A stretch of 64,000 nt of DNA from Apophysomyces variabilis (Eukaryota; Mucoromycota; Mucoromycetes; Mucorales; Mucoraceae): NCBI GenBank assembly GCA_002749535.1, contig MZZL01000380.1:1-64000 (forward strand). The letters are read 5' to 3'. Positions within the stretch are counted from its first letter, which is position 1. Each line of letters opens with the position of its first letter. Both the position numbers and the translations under genes were made by a program. Under the pieces are notes generated by a model, which worked only from the letters and a program-made list of their open reading frames with translations, was not told the DNA's origin and did no database searches. This document shows positions 29,886-40,382 of this stretch, piece by piece.

Positions 29886-31653
29886 GGTAGGTGAAATTAT
29901 TCAATGTGCATTACATTGTAGGTAGTAGTATGTGATATAGGCTGTATAAACGATCTAGTCACAGGCATCTCCTCATCAAGTTGCTATCTTGTTTCTTGTA
30001 TAAAATTGTGCGCAGTCTGTGTTGCAAATATTTTTCCTTTTGTCTCAGTTACTGCTCTCCTACACGCGTACGGGAACGTGAAATATCTGACGATGTAAGG
30101 TTATACTACATATGGAACTGTTTCTACGCTCTTGAGAAAGACAGGATTAAGCGATCGATATCCGGTACAATTAAAGAAGGAACAATAGCCGTTGCATTCA
30201 AATGAATGATCAATGCTTGTGCAAGGAATAGTAAACGTGAAGTTTAGCTTAAATCAGATCAACTCTTCCCTATTTCCCACTCCGGGCGATACATCTGACA
30301 TGTCAGTGAGCTTTTAAATATAAGACTGAATGACATGCCCGGTCACTTAGTTGACATTAACTACTCAAGGAACACGCTTGGAACTAAATACAGTATCTCC
30401 CAAAAATAATTTCGTCAATGCCGTCCTTTTTCTGCTAAGCTACCGCTTTACCTCATTTTAAAAGTGCATCCACATCCTTGAGCTCTCCCCATGCCCACTG
30501 TTAAACAGTCAAAAGCAGAACTCGCTGCTGCCAAGGCTGAAATTAGTAGGCTCAAACAACACAACGGTTCCCTTCTCCAGATGGTAGGCTCTAGTTTCCC
30601 TATGGAAAAATATCGGGGAAGGGCGTGAGTATCAAAAAAGCCTTTTTGCAAGGAAGAAGCGGGCGACAGCAGGCCGGACAGGGGCCCTGATGCGATGGAT
30701 ACGTTTTGCGGAGATATCGATATGTATTAGGCATGTGGATTGAATGGACGGTTTGTATTAGAGGAAATAGATTCAGCAGACTTGGCGTCTATCTCCCCCC
30801 CCCCAATTTTTATCACATTGGTCTAGCCCGGGCGGACACAATTATTATTTTTGCGCTCATTGGAACGAATGAATAAACCGAAGAAACTAGATAGTGCTAG
30901 GTTGAAAGTCGATTCATTCACTTAGCTCGAAAAAAAAAAGTAATCCACAAACCTCTATAAGACGCATCCAGAGTCTGTAAGCTAGAATAATGACATACCT
31001 AATACCTTAACAATCTATCCCATAAGCAAATCAACTTCTTAATATCAGAACTTGAGATGCATTGCGAGTTGTCAAGATGTCCTACTTGCAAAAAGATCAA
31101 TAAAGGGTACTTTGTGCATTCTTGCACTTTTACTGCTGTGAATACGATCCAGTTAGGAATTTGAATTACTATTCCGGTTATCTAGCAGAAAACCACTAAT
31201 GGAAACCATGTCACCCACTTGTTTATTTTCCTTCACATGTCATTTTCGTTCTTTTCCAGTCATTTTCTGTAAAGCATGACATAATTTTGAATCAAGATAG
31301 ACATTGAGGTATTATTGATGGGAACAGTAGACCGAGTTACAAACTGTATCTACACGTCTAATATTTATGTAACATTCCATGCAAATCCGTTGTACAATGA
31401 AAAGGAAATGACATAAACTATGTAAACTTTGTTCGGATGCACCCGAAGATGCTGCAACTTTTACGTACTTTATTCGAAGACATACCAAGATAGTTTTTTA
31501 CCGGGTGTGATGCAGACGAACTTTCAAACCATATGAGATAAGAAGGCTGCAAAAGATTTTAGCAGACAATAGGTATTCTATAAAAATTAAGAGAACATGA
31601 AACCAAAAAAAAGTAAAAAAAACAAAGTAAAAAAATTTATTTAGCCCAGCTAT
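29886..31653. other. Long gene-poor spacer
   Basis: AT-rich with a C9 run near 30796. Apart from the 45-codon frame listed separately, no coding, RNA or repeat signal was recognised. Confidence 0.45.
30491..30628 (+). CDS. Possible short coiled-coil ORF or exon fragment
   Basis: A 45-codon frame starts MPTVKQSKAELAAAKAEI and contains a Lys/Ala/Glu heptad-like helix (EISRLKQHNGSLLQM). A good donor-like GTGAGT overlaps its stop, so it could be a first exon or a relic. No partner exon was found. Confidence 0.25.
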   Translation: MPTVKQSKAELAAAKAEISRLKQHNGSLLQMVGSSFPMEKYRGRA

Positions 31654-31952
31654 TCAGCGTAGCTCTTGTAGAGCAGCCTCGTCCACAGACATTGGCTGCC
31701 CTTGTTGTTGCTGTTGCTGTTGCTGTTGCTGTTGATGTTGATGTTGGCGCTTATGGCGCCGCACCCATTGAGGGGGACGGCGTCCCTATGTAAAAATCAG
31801 GTTTAGTATCTGTTTCTTTGTTAACATACATGCCAAGTATAATAACTTACGGCACGACCAGCACGACCATTTTGGGAAGTAAGAGCACGGCCACCGTTAG
31901 CTTCAGTACAATAGAAATTTGCAACGGAATTGATATGGATTGCGCGACTCAT
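31654..31952 (-). CDS. 77-residue Arg/Gln-rich protein
   Basis: Two exons (31952-31851, 31785-31654) join in phase 0. The N-terminal part (MSRAIHINSVANFYCTEANG) is compact and looks conserved. Next come GR-rich residues (NGRAGRAGRRPPQW), a basic HKRQHQHQ stretch, a run of glutamines encoded by CAR repeats (31696-31740), and the end SVDEAALQELR. The phase-perfect intron with GTAAGT/TAG borders and the non-random N-terminus support a real gene. I do not recognise the family. The GR and Q content suggests an RNA-associated or nuclear protein, but that is only a hint. Confidence 0.55.
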
Positions 31953-32385
31953 GATATTGATATTTTTGGAGATTTTTATGGTCATCCTATCCTGTTTTTA
32001 TATCTTTATACAGAATAATCGATCTTAACTCCTCACTACTTTCATTGTAGTAGATGAGTGTGTTCTTTGCCGTATCCACAGCTACTATGGATACTTTCTA
32101 CCCTGCTTATGTCTAAATAGAGGAAGATGGACTTTAATTATGGACTTGCATAACACAGGATCAAGCAATGTTAACTGACTCCCTCGATACAATGAATAAT
32201 GCCAATCTTCTATGATTTGCTGCGGAAAAAATTCTCCATTATAGAAAGCAATTACAAATCACTTATTACAGAGCACAGTCCTCGATTACACTCCTGTCAA
32301 TCTAGACCAACGGACATTTTGGTATAAAAGAGTGATGTTTTTATTCAAATAAACATCATCCTACATTGAGTTTCACTATGAGAAG

Positions 32386-32438
32386 TGGTTCCTGATATAC
32401 TATTTTTTACTTTATAGAAAATAGTATATCAGGAACCA
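32386..32438. repeat. Perfect 21-bp inverted repeat with 11-nt loop
   Basis: The arm 32386-32406 (tggttcctgatatactattt plus t) is exactly the reverse complement of 32418-32438. As RNA it would form a stable hairpin. No coding frame surrounds it. It could be a small-RNA precursor, a terminator or a palindromic mobile relic. Confidence 0.9.
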
Positions 32439-32679
32439 GAAATAACAAAATAGGCACTGATGGAGACCGGAAGGAACTTAAATTTTCTATAGTGTCTCGC
32501 ATATATTGCTTGTCCCTTTCCATTCTCAGTTATGACCCTACACTCTTATTTTTTCGCACTGCATATAAATTACACTAATAATAGATTGTCTGAATCAGCT
32601 GTAGGCAGAAATTATATTCTCTATCTGACCTTCTTTGTGTTTTCTTTTCTTTTACGATATTGTTGCAAAGATATCATAA

Positions 32680-32725
32680 CGGGAAATTGTATGACTAGAA
32701 ATCGGGAAATTGTATGACTAGAAAT
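32680..32725. repeat. Perfect tandem duplication, 2 x 23 bp
   Basis: The 23-mer starting cgggaaattgtatgactag occurs at 32680-32702 and again at 32703-32725 with no difference. A diverged partial third copy (atgactagacat) follows near 32751. This suggests replication slippage. Confidence 0.9.
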
Positions 32726-34122
32726 CTATAGGTTTTGACCGGATATCTCAATGACTAGACATCCGTCAGTTATTACAGTCAACTTTTCCTTTTAACAAAG
32801 AATAATCAGTCGCGGTAGATGTTATTGATAATGATCATTATATATATAGCAAACAAAGAAGAGACTCCTTTTAGAACTTTGTTTTTACTTAGGCTCCAGC
32901 CTTTTTCCACTCGGGTTAGACAGGATCTTCATAAATCCGATAGGTTGACACCTTAAACCTTATTTTAGTGTCTTTGTTGGAAGGGATTTACCTCGGGTGC
33001 TCCCCTCTGACACTCCTCCCCCAAATTATTTGAGCGCCGTTATCATAGACTAGACGCCGTTTGTCATATTGGCCAGTAACAATATCAAGAAAAGAGCGGA
33101 GGAACAAACTATAGGTAGCATATCAGCAACTGATGGAGTGCCCGAGAGCTCATTTGGTTATACAAAAGGCAAATGCTAAGGATCATGATGGAATAACAAA
33201 TAAAAAGACTTATTGAATTAATAACATTGCATCAAAGAAATGACAATGGTACACATGGAAAGTACAGGTAGAAATGATAACGAAGGTACCTTCAGGGGCA
33301 CTCCCTCTGCGATCAGTTGCTGTGACGCTACTTGCGTTTTATTCTTGCGCTTCTCTCCTAGTATTCTCACTGAATAACACGTCAAAGACGTTTTATTTTA
33401 TCATAACGGCGCTGAAATATGTTGGGGAATAATGCCCGAGGTAATTACCTTGTTGGAATCCTGTTTTTCTCATGTTTAATTGAATCTAACCACGCCTTCT
33501 TTCTACTCCAAAAGCCTACAAGATATACTTTATATAGATGACCCGGAAAAGGAGGTAAACCTAACAACCTCTGCGACCCAAGTTTTGTTGTAGAATGTTG
33601 GATATGACATTAATATAATAAAAGCTTTTTTACACACCTTCCGAAGTGGAGACAAAGAAAGCAGCATATGACTGACAACATGTGACTTAGCGTCTCCTTT
33701 TTTTCTGATTAATGCTAACGACAAAGAATAAAAGGGAGCAGCCGTGTCAAACAAACGTATATACTTCTTTTTCACTTCATGTTTACTTTTATCGAAGTAT
33801 TCACTCTATACAAAATTTACTTATCTATTTCACTCTACATTTTTTCACTGTAAGTTTATCCTGATCGTATGGGTTAGCTCGTCACTAACAGTTGTTTTGT
33901 TCATAGTACAAGCATTCACAAGATTTATCTTTTTTCTTTTACTTTTTCTCTATCTTTTACAACAGTAAGTACCATAGTCAAACACTTGTATGTTTCGTAT
34001 GGATACTGATAGCCTGGCTAGAAAAAGCGCGGAAACATCTCATTCAGAACAAAGCAAAGTTGTGAGTATCCCACAACTAATTTATACATTATAAATATTA
34101 CAGTTCAATTCTTTGTAGCACC

Positions 34123-37100
34123 ATGGGTCTAAAAGGATTCCATGCGTACCTGCGCCAGGCAGGAACGACAACCACGACAAACATACCCGACCGTCTGCGG
34201 CAATAACACGTCGGGATCGTTTACGTCGATTTCTGCTGCGACTTTTTCTGGCTGCTTCAAGACTTCGCAGTGGACTTTCTGACTGCCACTGGTGATCGAC
34301 AACGACGAGAATAGCAGCAAGATCAATATGCTGAGGTCGCCAGGCGTTTCGTGGACCGTACGATGAACGAACTTAATGCGTTCGCCGACAACAGTGATGT
34401 CCCAAAAATCTGTCTGGTCTTCGATGGCGACCGACTATCCACCAAGAGAGCCACCCACGCCGCAAGACAAGCCAAGAAGAACCTGGCTTGGAGGAAGGCT
34501 CGAAGACAGACCGGAGACTCCCGCGGACTATACTTTGCGGCGAGGGAGCGTCTCCGTAGGAAATACGCCAAGCAGTGGGCCAGCTTTACTCCAGCGATCA
34601 AAGATGCAATCATTCACGAGCTGAACACAAGACAAGACACCCGGCCTTATGGTCGCAATTTCGCTAACGAGCCAGTGAGAATATTCATTCACGAGGCTCT
34701 ATTCGAGGCTGACCTGGAAGTCGTCTATTTATGCGACTCGCTCGGAGAAGGCGTCCAGTCAGCCATTATGTCTCGAGATGGCGACCTATTCGCTTATCAA
34801 GGTGCTCTGGACGTTCCAGTAAGTGAATAAGCCTACCCTCTTTCTCCAATACGCATACGCTAATCCATGTTATCTATGCTTTGTAGCGCATAACCAAGAT
34901 GAACTGGCGACACGGGCCCCAACGATACAATGGGACCGTATCAACCAAGCGGGATCTTGTAACAGCTTTCATGGGGCTGCAAACTGCGATCACAGACGGA
35001 CAAGCTATCAATGTAAGTATTCATATACTGCTACTTAAGATCACAGTCATTAATATACTGCACTGTAGGCTCAAATCCGTTTTGTCGTCTTGGCAGCCAC
35101 ATGTGGAAATGATTATGCGAAAAATCTACGAGGCAAATCATTCAAAAGGGTCAAGGCAGCACTAGAACAAGTCCCACAAGCCGATGAAGCGGACACTTTG
35201 CTGCAGACCTTGATGAACAACATCGGTGTCTTTGTATCAGATTCTGAAATGCACGGGTTCAGGGTTGCACTCCACCAGTTTTGCAGGCCATGAGTTTCTG
35301 GAGTTCATTCTGATGAGCAACCTATTCATTATGGCGATATCCGTTTACAAAACGCCGATACCAACATTATTGAAAGTCTCGCTCGTTCGGCTGTGGCAGG
35401 GACAACTCCGGCGCGACACAACCAGCGTCCCGATTATGGAAGCCGATACAGGTTGCTCGAGCCGACACCCGAACTTAACGAAGGTGTGATCGAAGAGGAA
35501 AACACCGGACCGCATGCTCCAAAAAGTAGTAAGAAGCAGACCAGACCCGCCAAGAAGGGTCGCGCGGGACCGTCGAGACGGCAGGCACAATTTATCAGGG
35601 ACGCCGCAAGTGGTGAAATCAGGGACTCCTTCCCGGAAAAAATCACTTACACCGAGGAGGACACCGGCCATCATATTACGCTTTATCAAAGCTCCAGATA
35701 TGTTGCTACTGCGGATGCTGGTCTTTATTCGTCTGTACTCGCAGCTGCTGTTCATCGAGCACGAAGAAATAGGCCAGATCGGGAAGGCATAGACGAAGCT
35801 TCACTCATCGAAAAGGTTATGGACAAGATCATCGATGATATGTCTTATGTTCGTTACGTTGGTTATCATATTGCCAACATTGCCATACGCGAAGCATACA
35901 ACTTGGACAACGATGCAATGCTGAGCCTTTATGAACTCTTCTTCCGGAACGGTAAGCGCACGGCTCAGGACCTATGGCGACACATCTTTTATTGCGCAAC
36001 AAACTATCAGACGATGGGAAGAAGCGAACCAAGTCTTGCCACTCACCAGGCAGCTAGCGAAGCTCAATATATACCACAGTCAGATATTTTGCACTCTGAT
36101 GGCCAGCTCCGTGGGCATAATGACGACGGAACGAACCTCTTCAAGGCCTTCACGGCAGATACAGCGTTCTTTTATTTGTCAAGAATGCTTAAGAGACCGC
36201 TGGAGCGAAACGTTCTCTTGAAGGCACGGAAGTTATGGTATCAAGATTGTTCGGCCGAGATGTGCATAGCACCAACTCCGATGTACATGGGAGAGATGGT
36301 GACTGAGATCGCCAATGGTGCCAGTGTTGATTTTCGCAAGAACATCGTTTACAACTTCAAGGATTGTTACTGCGATTATCTTCGATCGCGACTGAAAGAA
36401 GTGGCTCGAGTACCAGTTGGTTGGCCTGCTCCAGATCAAGGAAGATTTGACGAATTCATTCAAGACATTATTCATTCTGTTCATGACGGAATTCAACATG
36501 TAGCTGCGCAGGAACGACAGCCGAGGTTCCAATACATCGCTGAAGCTAATATCCATGAACAGGACAACAAGTTTGTGACCAACATGGTGAATCGATACAA
36601 GAACTCCATTGAAGCATTTGATGAAGACAGGTGGCGACGAAAAGTTGAGAATCATGCAACGGTGCCCCCAGGATGGCCAAGAAACAGGGACAAGCTTATC
36701 ACTGCTTTATTCCAACGAATCTGGGGCATGTCAGTCGATATTAGCGAAGCTGGTGCTGATCAAGAAGGTTTTGAAGAATATGAGCAAGATCAAGAGGAAG
36801 AACGTCAAGCAACTGGCGACATCTTTGCTGGTTTAGCAAACGACGTTCATACCCAGATTGAAGATTTCATCACCGCTGAGCGCAATCTCCAAGTAAAAGG
36901 CATTCGAGTGTCCGAGGTCAATCTGTCCGAATGTCTTGGTGAGAATGGGAGACAAGGAACAAACGGTGGTAACAATGATGAAGAGAACGGTTATGAAGAT
37001 GACGAGGATGATGTGCTCCACCGAACTTATGGAGGCAAACTTTCCAGGGCAAAGGCTGCAAGATTGATCCCGATTATGATCTATTTCCTGGAAAGGCGAG

Positions 37101-38931
37101 AAGGTAATTCCCAATCTTTCGTTTTATGTCCTCTCCAAGCACATCATCGTATCGCTATCTCTTTCAATCTTTCCTTTACGACAACTTTGCTCGCTCGCAT
37201 TGAGCATTTCTCTCGTCCTATCATTCAGCAATTGGAGCAAAAATTAACAGCTAGTCCCAATGATCGACGCATTGCTGAATTGGCAAGAGGTAAGTAGAAG
37301 TTATTAATTGTATGTAGTTGAGCAAATTCACATATATTTCAATTACAGAGAGAGACAATCTACAAAATGCATGTGTAAGACTCCAGGGCATCAAGAGCAG
37401 AGATCCATTCAGCGCACTCTTCGACATCCGTCGGCAAGCTACCATTACAAGAGACGGAGGCGTTGATGTCCGAGACCGGGGTTACATGCGATGGTTGAAC
37501 CAGCGAATACCGGGCAATGAAAACAAGCTTCGTTTCTCTCGACGTCGTGTCTTTCGCACTGACGGTGTTCGCCTATATTGTATATATAATGATTGGCTCA
37601 GGTCACGTCGTGGAAATACTACATGCAAGTATTTGACGGAGATCAGACGAACAACAAGAGAGACGTTGAAGGACGCATGGCAAGCTGGCTCATCTGGGGA
37701 TCAGTACGATTATCTCCAGCATTACGATGGTGTAGTTGGTCTGGACTTTGGAGAAGTATGTGCTGCTGCTAGTGTGTTCCGACCGAGGGAGCCTGGACTA
37801 TACGGTTCTTAGCTCACTATCAAGCGAGGCTATCTGTATGGCAGAACTATTCCAAACCGCGACTGGCTAGAAGCTCGCAAGGCTACCAACAACATTGACA
37901 ACATCGAGGCTGCTTTAAGTGAAGGATCACCACGAAGCACTTATGACAGATATCGGGAGTACCTGCGACAACTCAAGACAAACGAGAATGGTCTTCCGTT
38001 ATGGAAGTTTTATTCCAACTGATCTGTCTGTCGCAGAATCTGGGACAATGCGATATCTCAGAGATCGTGTCTTGACAAGGCTTGCTACCTCATCACGAAT
38101 CAAGCTAAGCGTACTTTCGACATGAATCACGAAATGGATGATAATCGTAGACATGTCGATGAGCCTCGTCTTGTCTACGCTTTTGGCTTAGACGGGATGA
38201 GTCGAAAGTCAAGACGACGGGGTTTGGCGCCTATGTACCACAAGATTGCCAATGCTTTGTACCGGAAGATCAACCAGAAGAATCGCAACAAGGACAGACA
38301 ACATGCCGACGTATCCACTCGAGTCGATGAATATCTCACATCCAAGGTGTGTTGTCGCTGTTCCAAGGAAGGCCAAGACCGACGTATCGACTTTTTGCGA
38401 CGGCCTCCTACGGCAACGGTGCAAGACAGAGCTCGATTGGAGAACGGTCAGGAGAAAGTGCTGCGCGTAGTTCAGTGTGCGAACTGTGATCGTACGTTCC
38501 ACGGGGATGGTAATGCAGCAGACAACCATGCTACCATTGCACGATACATGCTACGGTTTCAGCAGCGTCCTCGTTGGTTCATCCGTCCGTCAAGGCGTCT
38601 GGAAGCGGCTGGCGAAGAGGAGGCTATGGTGATGACTGGTCATGCAGGGCTTCAACATAGAGCTAGTGGTGAAGAGGTGACGGAGGTGCCTGAGATTGCC
38701 GAACCTCGACGACACCCTAGCGAAGGGATGGCGGTGACAACCCCTCTAGAAGAGCGAGCTAGTGGCCGAGAGGTAGCGTGGGCACGGGAGGTGCCTGGGA
38801 TTGCCGAGCCTCGACGACGCCCTAGCCAAGAAGCGGCGGTGACAACCCCAACTGCACGACGTCGAACAAGAGCCAGCCAAACCGAGACTATGGTTGAACC
38901 ACCCAGGTCTCGCAGACGAATCAGCCGATGA
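34123..38931 (+). pseudogene. FEN1/XPG-like nuclease fused to a Fanzor (TnpB-like) RuvC nuclease, interrupted by five stops
   Basis: Four exons (34123-34818, 34887-35012, 35069-37289, 37349-38931) form one frame of 1541 codons. Codons 1 to about 330 look like the FEN1/XPG family: MGLKGFHAYL, VFDG...TKR, FEADLEVV, SRDGDLFAY and ATCGNDYAKNLRGKSFKR. A long helical middle follows. The C-terminal part is Fanzor-like. RuvC-I is GLDFG (D at codon 1147). VDEYLTSK (E at 1342) leads into a zinc ribbon (CCRC...CANC), and HGDGNAADN (D at 1401) matches RuvC-III. In-frame stops: TAA 34204, TAG 34312, TGA 35291, TAG 37810, TGA 38020. No frameshift was found. After the 35291 stop there is no Met for about 175 codons, so the Fanzor part has no obvious start of its own. 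Known role of Fanzors: RNA-guided DNA cleavage. Translating this copy would need readthrough or an intact paralog. Confidence 0.8.
38660..38849 (+). repeat. Tandem repeat coding the tail of the Fanzor ORF
   Basis: Two units, 38660-38744 and 38756-38849, both begin gagctagtgg and end ggcggtgacaacccc. They encode similar segments containing RASG, EVP-IAEPRR-PS and AVTTP. The tail lies after the catalytic core and is probably disordered. Confidence 0.8.
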
Positions 38932-40382
38932 GAAGAGGAAAGACCAGAATCGTCCCGAGCTCCTTTAAGGCGATCTGAGAGGCAGCAAGCAAAAAGACAG
39001 AAAAGGATCCACGAGTCAAGTGGATAGGGCTTTTACGCCCGGTATTTAGTAAGTGTCATTGAATACTATTGTTACTTTTCTTCTATTACTCACCAATTGA
39101 AATTTATATATGCATCTGGCATTCACTTGGCGGGGAGATGGGTATGGCGTCGTCAGTTTTATGACAGGTATGTACACATTGGTCAATTCCAACTCTTATA
39201 ACACGACAATTAATGTAATTTGTTAGCGTCAAGTCCAGTTTCCAAAATGCACCAAGTGAATTTGCTAGATACGACTTTAATTTTTGGAAATAAAGTACAG
39301 TAGTACTGAAAACAATATCAAATAATCTGCTTTCAGGAGATGCGGGCCGTTCGTGGACGAATTCTGCACTGCTGCTCAGCCATAGGACTTACTTGACCAT
39401 GGAGATAACAAGCCCCTCACTGAGACCAATCGCCAAACCTACCTCTGACCACGCGATGGTTGCATTTTATGTGATATTATCCCGCTCTTTCTAGATCTTA
39501 TGGATAGTGGACAACTATGAAGAAAAGCATGCCGACCTAGATATCAACAGGCTTATTGCACCAAAAACGGGCTTGTGGAACGTGCGAAGAACAATAATAA
39601 TTAAAAGGGATATCGGAAAAGTTTAAGTTGCCTTGTGCTTCCTTTCTGTAGGGTTATCATCCGATTACGGTTGAACAAATGGATCGATAAAGCAGGATAA
39701 GGCCTATGTCATGCTCTTTTTCAACCTTGCTTAACCATGTTTTGTTTTGAAGAGGTATGCATCCTGTAGGCTTGCCATTGTTTCTGCGAATAGCCACCGT
39801 ATCATGACTGTCATTGTGCTTTTGTTGGACAGCATGGTGATGTTTGACTGAGAGACGTCGATACTCCTTACAAATCAATGTGCTTTCCATATATCATGTT
39901 ATCCAATAATCACTTGCTATTTGGGAAAACTGTTATCTTTCGATAAGTCAGGCTGTTTGTCAATGTGTTTCAGGCTGTCGAAAATGCATCACTACCCACT
40001 GCCATTGCACAAATTGCGGCTTCTCACAAGCAAAGAACTTGTACCTTTCCACTTGATTTCGTTTTAAACGAGGATGTCTTTCTATGCTCATGTGATAGAC
40101 AAAGAGCATTGAAGTTTACATACTGTAAACAAGTGCTTTTTTCCCATTTTTGGGGTAATAAATGGGAAAAGCGAGCTCCAGATTTCAAATGCCCAAAAAA
40201 AAAATTTCTGTAATTTTCAATCGCGAACCATGTGAAATTTCGGGCGGCATTTCTTTTTGGATGGACTGAGAAAAAGACTACAAAGCTTAGCTTTGCTTCG
40301 CCTATTTTTTTTCCTTATATTTCTTTCTTTTCACGCAAAACTCACATATACTCTACACAACACATAAGTCTTTCCTAGACGA
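38932..40382. other. 3' flank of the Fanzor locus and DGAT2 promoter
   Basis: Contains the two hairpins listed next and a 10-bp inverted pair (attcacttgg at about 39120, ccaagtgaat at about 39250). A 77-codon minus-strand frame (39657-39890) has no recognised motif. CT/T-rich DNA precedes the DGAT2 start. Confidence 0.4.
39006..39041 (+). ncRNA. Two adjacent hairpins: candidate Fanzor guide-RNA scaffold
   Basis: Stem 1: atccac (39008-39013) with gtggat (39021-39026). Stem 2: gggc (39028-39031) with gccc (39038-39041). They lie 75-110 nt after the ORF stop. In TnpB and Fanzor systems the guide RNA maps at or just past the 3' end of the nuclease gene. The stems are seen directly; the function is inferred. 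A terminator hairpin is an alternative. Confidence 0.3.

Follow-up and report, generated by a model that had tools for sequence, protein, structure and literature searches.

The window analysed here is a stretch of 64,000 nucleotides (positions 1–64,000 of contig MZZL01000380.1, called C64) from Apophysomyces variabilis, and it holds a damaged copy of a mobile element of ∼8.9 kb. A reading frame in this element, from 34123 to 38931 on the forward strand, joins a region resembling FEN1/XPG nucleases (the N-part) through a linker to a region resembling Fanzor RuvC nucleases (the C-part). Fanzors are eukaryotic relatives of TnpB and Cas12. We read the locus, with a probability of about 0.6, as a decayed DNA transposon copy whose only recognised gene specified one protein: a FEN1/XPG-superfamily 5′ nuclease, a linker and a Fanzor-type RuvC nuclease. 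The observations behind this reading are the parts themselves, an order shared by four copies, a junction codon that is sense in two of these, coding-type evolution of N-part and linker, and an element that holds both. Paralogues were sought in the whole genome (a 38.7-Mb assembly of 126 contigs), and the protein relatives compared below are the copies in this genome.

The frame and its copies

The frame lies in four exons (the third from 35069 to 37289) and, once the three introns are removed, keeps a consistent phase over 1541 codons before its final stop. As an earlier note on this DNA had claimed, it starts with MGLKGFHAYL, at 34123, and SRDGDLFAY, CGNDYAKNLRGKSFKR, GLDFG, VDEYLTSK, CxxC..CxxC and HGDGNAADN all fall within the single phase-consistent frame. 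The three introns of that note, read from the sequence alone, are borne out by GT..AG borders and by the same places in three other copies (C68, C75 and C59). The note was incomplete on one point: the joined frame is present, but five stops (34204, 34312, 35291, 37810 and 38020) interrupt it, of which 35291 alone had been named. Because of these internal stops the window copy is a pseudogene, unable in its present form to yield the joined protein. The features of the frame are as follows.

34123..34818, + strand: exon 1, with an XPG_N-like and most of an XPG_I-like region; in-frame stops at 34204 and 34312
34819..34886, + strand: predicted intron 1, GT..AG, 68 nt, in the same place in 4 of 4 copies
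34887..35012, + strand: exon 2
35013..35068, + strand: predicted intron 2, GT..AG, 56 nt (55 nt in C59), in the same place in 4 of 4 copies
35069..35290, + strand: first part of exon 3, the end of the XPG_I/helix-hairpin-like region with CGNDYAKNLRGKSFKR, from the hhalign alignment to the own-genome FEN1-family profile and the paralogues
35291..35293, + strand: in-frame TGA, a stop also in C59 and sense in C68 and C75
35294..35818, + strand: linker of 175 Met-less codons joining the two domains, stop-free in 4 of 4 copies, with a coding signal against C28
35819..37289, + strand: Fanzor-side middle region, where WED and REC would be expected and are not identifiable by sequence; open frame 35294–37297
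37290..37348, + strand: predicted intron 3, GT..AG, 59 nt, in the same place in C68, C75 and C59
37349..38931, + strand: exon 4, with RuvC and zinc finger; in-frame stops at 37810 and 38020, frame end at 38929–38931
37744..37746, + strand: RuvC-I aspartate D1147 (GLDFG); DFG also in C59, C75, C115, C23 and C68
38329..38331, + strand: alternative RuvC-II glutamate, six residues before the zinc finger; DEYL in 9 of 9 rows
38350..38487, + strand: C4 zinc finger, CxxC..CxxC; PF07282 at E = 1e-4 and 22.9 bits, below the cut-off of 26.3
38506..38508, + strand: RuvC-III aspartate; GD in the window, RD in 8 of 8 other rows

Two ways of reading through the stops were considered. A code in which TAA and TAG specify an amino acid was set aside; the window frame keeps TGA stops, and other copies are frameshifted. 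An extra intron replacing the stops at 37810 and 38020 was rejected, since the frame continues and, wherever the other copies extend this far, at least one of the two codons is sense.

Genome-wide searches, in which matches are pieces with several per locus, gave 16 matches for the 171-codon exon 1 frame, 27 for the 667-codon middle frame and 102 for the last frame of 302 codons, many of the latter covering only the final 30 codons, which fall within the element's right end, itself widely repeated. Both parts were found in the same order and orientation at three further loci (C68, C75 and C59), with the introns of the window copy, a recurrence that goes beyond chance. C68 and C75 are ∼94–99% identical to the window per 300 bases, until readable sequence ends in N runs. 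C59 is a chimera, at 81–87% to ∼35335, 93–99% from there to ∼38400, and 85–89% beyond. Its XPG part is diverged and its Fanzor part near-identical, and the switch between them is sharp at the match to window position 35335, as if modules had been exchanged or converted.

The positions of stops vary by copy: 34204 and 34312 are sense in all three other long copies, and C68 and C75 also have a sense codon at 35291. In C75 an open frame of 473 codons crosses 35291, covering XPG exon 3 and the first half of the frame on the Fanzor side. Fanzor-element sequence lies downstream at six of the 12 N-part loci (window, C68, C75, C59, C92 and C95:770k). Viral contigs scanned with the N-part and C-part, prokaryotic genome contigs scanned with the N-part, and plasmids searched by tblastn with the middle part gave no relatives, which says little about fungi.

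The two nuclease parts and the linker

The FEN1/XPG superfamily has seven acidic catalytic positions. Pairing a profile of eight N-part rows with one built from FEN1, EXO1, GEN1, XPG and one FEN-like gene of the same genome, hhalign gave a score of 28.7 (E-value 0.003), ∼8 s.d. above 60 column shuffles (mean 13.1, s.d. 1.9, maximum 18.2), and only 11.8 with the profile reversed. Motifs are in register across 97 columns, with EALFEAD, SRDGDLFAY and CGNDYAKNLRG of the N-part paired with EAPCEAE, SEDMDTLTF and CGCDYVQSIRG of the FEN1 family, respectively. Acidic residues of the window copy stand at positions aligned with the FEN1 I-region acids, while those of the N-region (VDF, FDG) fit by eye only; the long copy C68 is without one of the acidic residues. 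Since the score exceeds every shuffle, the N-part is, on the evidence of this alignment, probably homologous to FEN1/XPG nucleases. It shares with FEN1, EXO1, GEN1 and XPG an I-region with aligned acids and a G.DY..RG motif, and differs from these 5′ nucleases in being fused to a Fanzor and in an identity of 24% over the 97 columns.

At nine of nine diverged paralogous N-part loci dN/dS was 0.28–0.47, crude values since the tblastn pieces behind them may overlap, and differences are more numerous at third codon positions than at the other two (P < 0.05 in six of nine). By these ratios the N-part is a sequence that evolved as coding.

The earlier note had counted no Met in the ∼175 codons that follow the 35291 stop and had taken this as an argument against a separate Fanzor start; the number is exactly 175. 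Against the much diverged C28 copy (L029) this linker has a likewise crude dN/dS of 0.52 over 142 codons and an excess of third-position changes (P = 0.037). The long copies differ at too few places for a judgement, with 0.38–0.94 for the three pairs among the window, C68 and C75 and up to 5.4, on nine changes, for pairs with C59. We conclude that the linker was probably translated together with the XPG part, because this Met-less stretch of the window is stop-free in all four copies and shows coding-type changes against C28. A single polypeptide with a FEN1/XPG-type domain and a Fanzor-type RuvC/zinc-finger nuclease is supported by paralogues and statistical homology. The fusion proposed in the note stands to this extent; what falls away is a functional gene in the window, which holds a pseudogene, and the four long copies are all damaged. 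Paralogues with a separate start for each part, the outcome set beforehand as counting against the fusion, were absent among the readable copies, and 35291 is sense in C68 and C75.

For the C-part, three published features of Fanzors could be compared. The plan D-X(125,275)-[TS]-[TS]-X-X-C4 zinc finger-X(5,50)-RD, as given by Bao and Jurka (2013, PMC3627910), is present in the family as D1147, TS 197 residues on, CxxC..CxxC and RD in the eight other rows; the window copy departs from it with GD for RD. The alternative glutamate that Yoon et al. (2023, PMC10711439) place six residues ahead of the zinc finger is present in nine of nine rows, and the exact spacing E-x6-CxxC in the window, C91, C46 and C88. 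These four also have the complete set of zinc-finger cysteines, at least one of which is lost in the C59, C23, C75 and C92 rows. The third feature, the RuvC-I motif, is taken up below; its comparison was a search for the motif itself, from which copies that lost the frame drop out. The NCBIfam TnpB profile matched with E = 0.038. On these motifs, we call the C-part an unusual Fanzor.

Around the RuvC-I motif (∼37740) the frame is lost with similar readings in C88, C78 and C46 and with a different one in C91. Because of this pattern, a single lesion may be common to some of the decayed copies, which would then have multiplied once they carried it. The genome has another Fanzor-like gene, with DPG and a zinc finger, on the minus strand at ∼3.078 Mb of C95 (L089, 1749–2975); it matches the zinc-finger end with E = 1e-6, and the genome search with the exon 1 frame reported no XPG part near it.

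The element and a candidate guide RNA

Comparison of copies fixed the ends of the element.

30389..39299, + strand: whole element, ∼8.9 kb, with ends TACAGTATCTCCCAAAAA... and ...TTTTTGGAAATAAAGTAC
30389..30414, + strand: left terminus, an imperfect inverted repeat of the right end
39274..39299, + strand: right terminus, common to 5 near copies and 10 of 10 further copies
39112..39272, + strand: long hairpin inside the right end, a candidate omega-RNA scaffold with 37 pairs

By eye, the left end of L054 matches the reverse complement of the L053 right end at 19 of 26 positions. The genome has 118 occurrences of the left-end pattern with ≤ 3 mismatches (reversed control, 0). The right-end stretch 38840–39310 has 240 candidate matches; the 40 that were scored include the window, and the others among them stand at 94–97%. 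Among ten further copies with both ends, the left end lies about where expected in nine, and the right end has GTAC in nine and GCAC in one; it is more loosely kept in the diverged C95, C92 and C28 copies. TAC stands at both sides of the element, either as a duplication or as part of the ends.

Three relatives of ∼1.7 kb (C89, C115:251k and C74) have window 30415–31604 joined straight to 38840–39299, and are gene-less relatives like the 'ghost' elements of SpuFz1. Six copies (C91, C46, C88, C23, C43:270k and C115:70k) have in common a deletion that joins ∼31449 to 36338, and in C78:718k position 31254 is joined to 35799. Two further loci, C92:421k and C95:770k, are internally deleted derivatives; because they keep XPG sequence with the 3′ part of the element, the XPG part belongs to the mobile unit. 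Neither another frame of at least 160 codons nor a transposase was recognised within the element, its smaller frames not being matched to families.

Two structures near the left end and in the interior were also seen. A segment of ∼190 bp (window 30602–30797) is inverted relative to its flanks in C91, C46, C78, C88, C23, C43 and C74 and has the window orientation in C115 (two copies) and C89, with no long inverted repeat evident at its two ends. A near-perfect palindrome with 24-bp arms lies at 32386–32438, similar ones occur in other copies, and Rfam gave only sub-threshold matches to miRNA families.

The right-end hairpin is a candidate guide-RNA scaffold. Across nine copies 94.0% of its cells are paired; its covariation score was reached by one of 500 shuffles, and 21 of 500 had at least as many pairs with changes on both sides. 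Its folding energy is modestly low (z = −1.8, with 10 of 200 shuffles folding as well), and the complementary strand is similar (z = −1.6).

Alternative readings and relation to known Fanzors

Several results weigh against the fusion nuclease set out above. No intact copy was seen in this genome, and stops or frameshifts affect all four long copies; the stop at 35291 recurs in the diverged C59 N-part. At six of the 12 N-part loci (C78:640k, C43:2k, C48, C64:172k, C95:2849k and C87) no Fanzor sequence was found in the fetched flank, which at ∼1.5 kb or less is too short to decide. The RuvC-I motif DPG, near exclusive in Fanzors according to Yoon et al. (2023, PMC10711439), is replaced by DFG in the window, C59, C75, C115, C23 and C68. 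For the N-part, hhalign's own probability for the pairing with the FEN1 family is 10%, and the Pfam XPG matches are below the cut-off. In the window copy XPG_I came first (E 0.012), XPG_N second (0.067) and BDV_P40 third (0.081). Across the eight rows XPG_I gave the best Pfam E-value (0.0029, three rows), with XPG_N also in three (best 0.066), and BDV_P40, an unrelated viral family, matched as many (3/8, best 0.0081). Because the three families match equally many rows, Pfam alone does not settle FEN1/XPG membership. A profile search of the PDB with the N-part found no FEN1 match, and PDB sequence searches no relevant one; PHROGs gave one match (E 0.32). AlphaFold models had a mean pLDDT of 42.9 for the N-part (17 rows) and 29.4 for the RuvC part (11 rows), and Foldseek with the N-part model found no match at E ≤ 0.001, which at this pLDDT is not evidence either way.

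As one protein, the product would comprise an N-terminal FEN1/XPG-superfamily 5′ nuclease of ∼350 residues, the linker and a Fanzor-type RNA-guided RuvC nuclease. Transcription through the right-end hairpin into the flank could supply a guide RNA that directs the RuvC domain to element-free sites beside a target motif. Because Fanzor cuts leave 3′ overhangs, as reported by Saito et al. (2023, PMC10432273), recessed 5′ strands are a plausible substrate of the N-domain, so that the built-in FEN1/EXO1-like 5′ nuclease would trim these, or else the displaced strand of the R-loop. Such trimming may steer the break to homologous repair from the element-bearing chromosome, copying or restoring the element. 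The joined protein would then be a self-contained RNA-guided homing protein, in which the RuvC domain cuts and the fused EXO1/FEN1-like 5′ nuclease at once resects, a proposal that we hold to be doubtful.

Other uses of the N-part deserve a similarly guarded place. A tentative possibility is that the single protein had an N-part that was no longer a nuclease, its FEN-like domain binding branched DNA or RNA and holding, for example, the R-loop or the guide RNA. The remoteness of the XPG family match (best Pfam E 0.0029) and the acidic residue missing from C68 would suit such binding; the acids of the window that align with those of the FEN1 I-region, and the VDF and FDG that fit by eye, speak for cutting. 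Equally tentative is a service in transposition, with the N-part trimming flaps or hairpins on the element after its excision or insertion, or cutting the guide-RNA precursor from the mRNA. The element is without another frame of at least 160 codons and the hairpin adjoins its right end, as such a service might lead one to expect; nothing speaks directly against it, and the multiplied short gene-less copies fit any of these roles.

That the locus held two neighbouring genes of one element, the first for a FEN1/XPG-like protein that stops at 35291 and the second for a Fanzor with its own start downstream, we consider unlikely. The TGA shared by the window and the diverged C59 N-part would be its natural end, and the change in C59 at ∼35335 looks as if the parts had been swapped as modules, but the codon is sense in C68 and C75, the 473-codon frame of C75 spans it, and the 175 Met-less codons that follow are stop-free in four of four copies and evolve as coding sequence. 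Highly unlikely is an N-part unrelated to FEN1/XPG with motifs by chance: the sub-threshold Pfam matches, spread over rows no better than BDV_P40, the PDB profile search without FEN1, the unusable fold prediction (pLDDT 42.9) and the 10% hhalign probability would allow it, against a score ∼8 s.d. over 60 shuffles, motifs in register over 97 columns and XPG_I and XPG_N matches in the right order.

The fusion of a FEN1/XPG-like domain to a Fanzor can be compared with three known systems. SpuFz1, in the account of Saito et al. (2023, PMC10432273), is the single gene of Spu-1, between inverted-repeat ends and with many gene-less 'ghost' relatives that keep both ends; these traits and the RuvC/zinc-finger type are common to the element here, and its guide RNA comes from the transposon end region, the place of the hairpin here. 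It differs in having no FEN1/XPG part, the words XPG and FEN1 being absent from the main text of that paper. PpFz1 of Parasitella (Cell 2024, PMC11423790) is likewise a Mucorales Fanzor with an added domain, described as ∼100 residues inside RuvC, whereas the domain here is N-terminal, nuclease-like and ∼350 residues long; most Fz1 proteins are put there at 600–700 residues, against 1541 codons here. The MCi-2 elements of Mucor circinelloides are unclassified Fanzor elements in which, as Bao and Jurka (2013, PMC3627910) describe them, a near-identical 3′ part is joined to differing 5′ parts, somewhat as in C59. As described there they have no recognisable terminal inverted repeats and show target duplications of 11–12 bp, and a partial Crypton transposase lies in MCi-2A; the main text nowhere uses the word XPG. 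In having no recognised transposase the element here resembles other transposase-less Fanzor elements.

In the literature covered, which leaves most subscription papers outside, no publication was found that joins Fanzor with XPG, or that treats XPG with transposable elements in Mucoromycota. By their listings, publications that mention Fanzor with flap endonuclease treat other topics, those with Fanzor and domain fusion are reviews, and the one with TnpB and XPG deals with Cas12a. The words XPG and FEN1 are absent from the main texts of PMC3627910, PMC10432273 and PMC10711439. The earlier remark that no Fanzor with such an N-terminus had been described agrees with the literature that could be searched. 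The protein would belong to a known kind, the Fanzors, and what appears new is the joined FEN1/XPG-like domain, for which no published description was found.

If the homing proposal were true, the element would spread or be retained without a transposase of its own. More generally, a natural fusion to a nuclease that processes DNA ends would suggest that Fanzors also have a part in repairing the cut, and would offer a natural model for editors in which cutting and resection are coupled.

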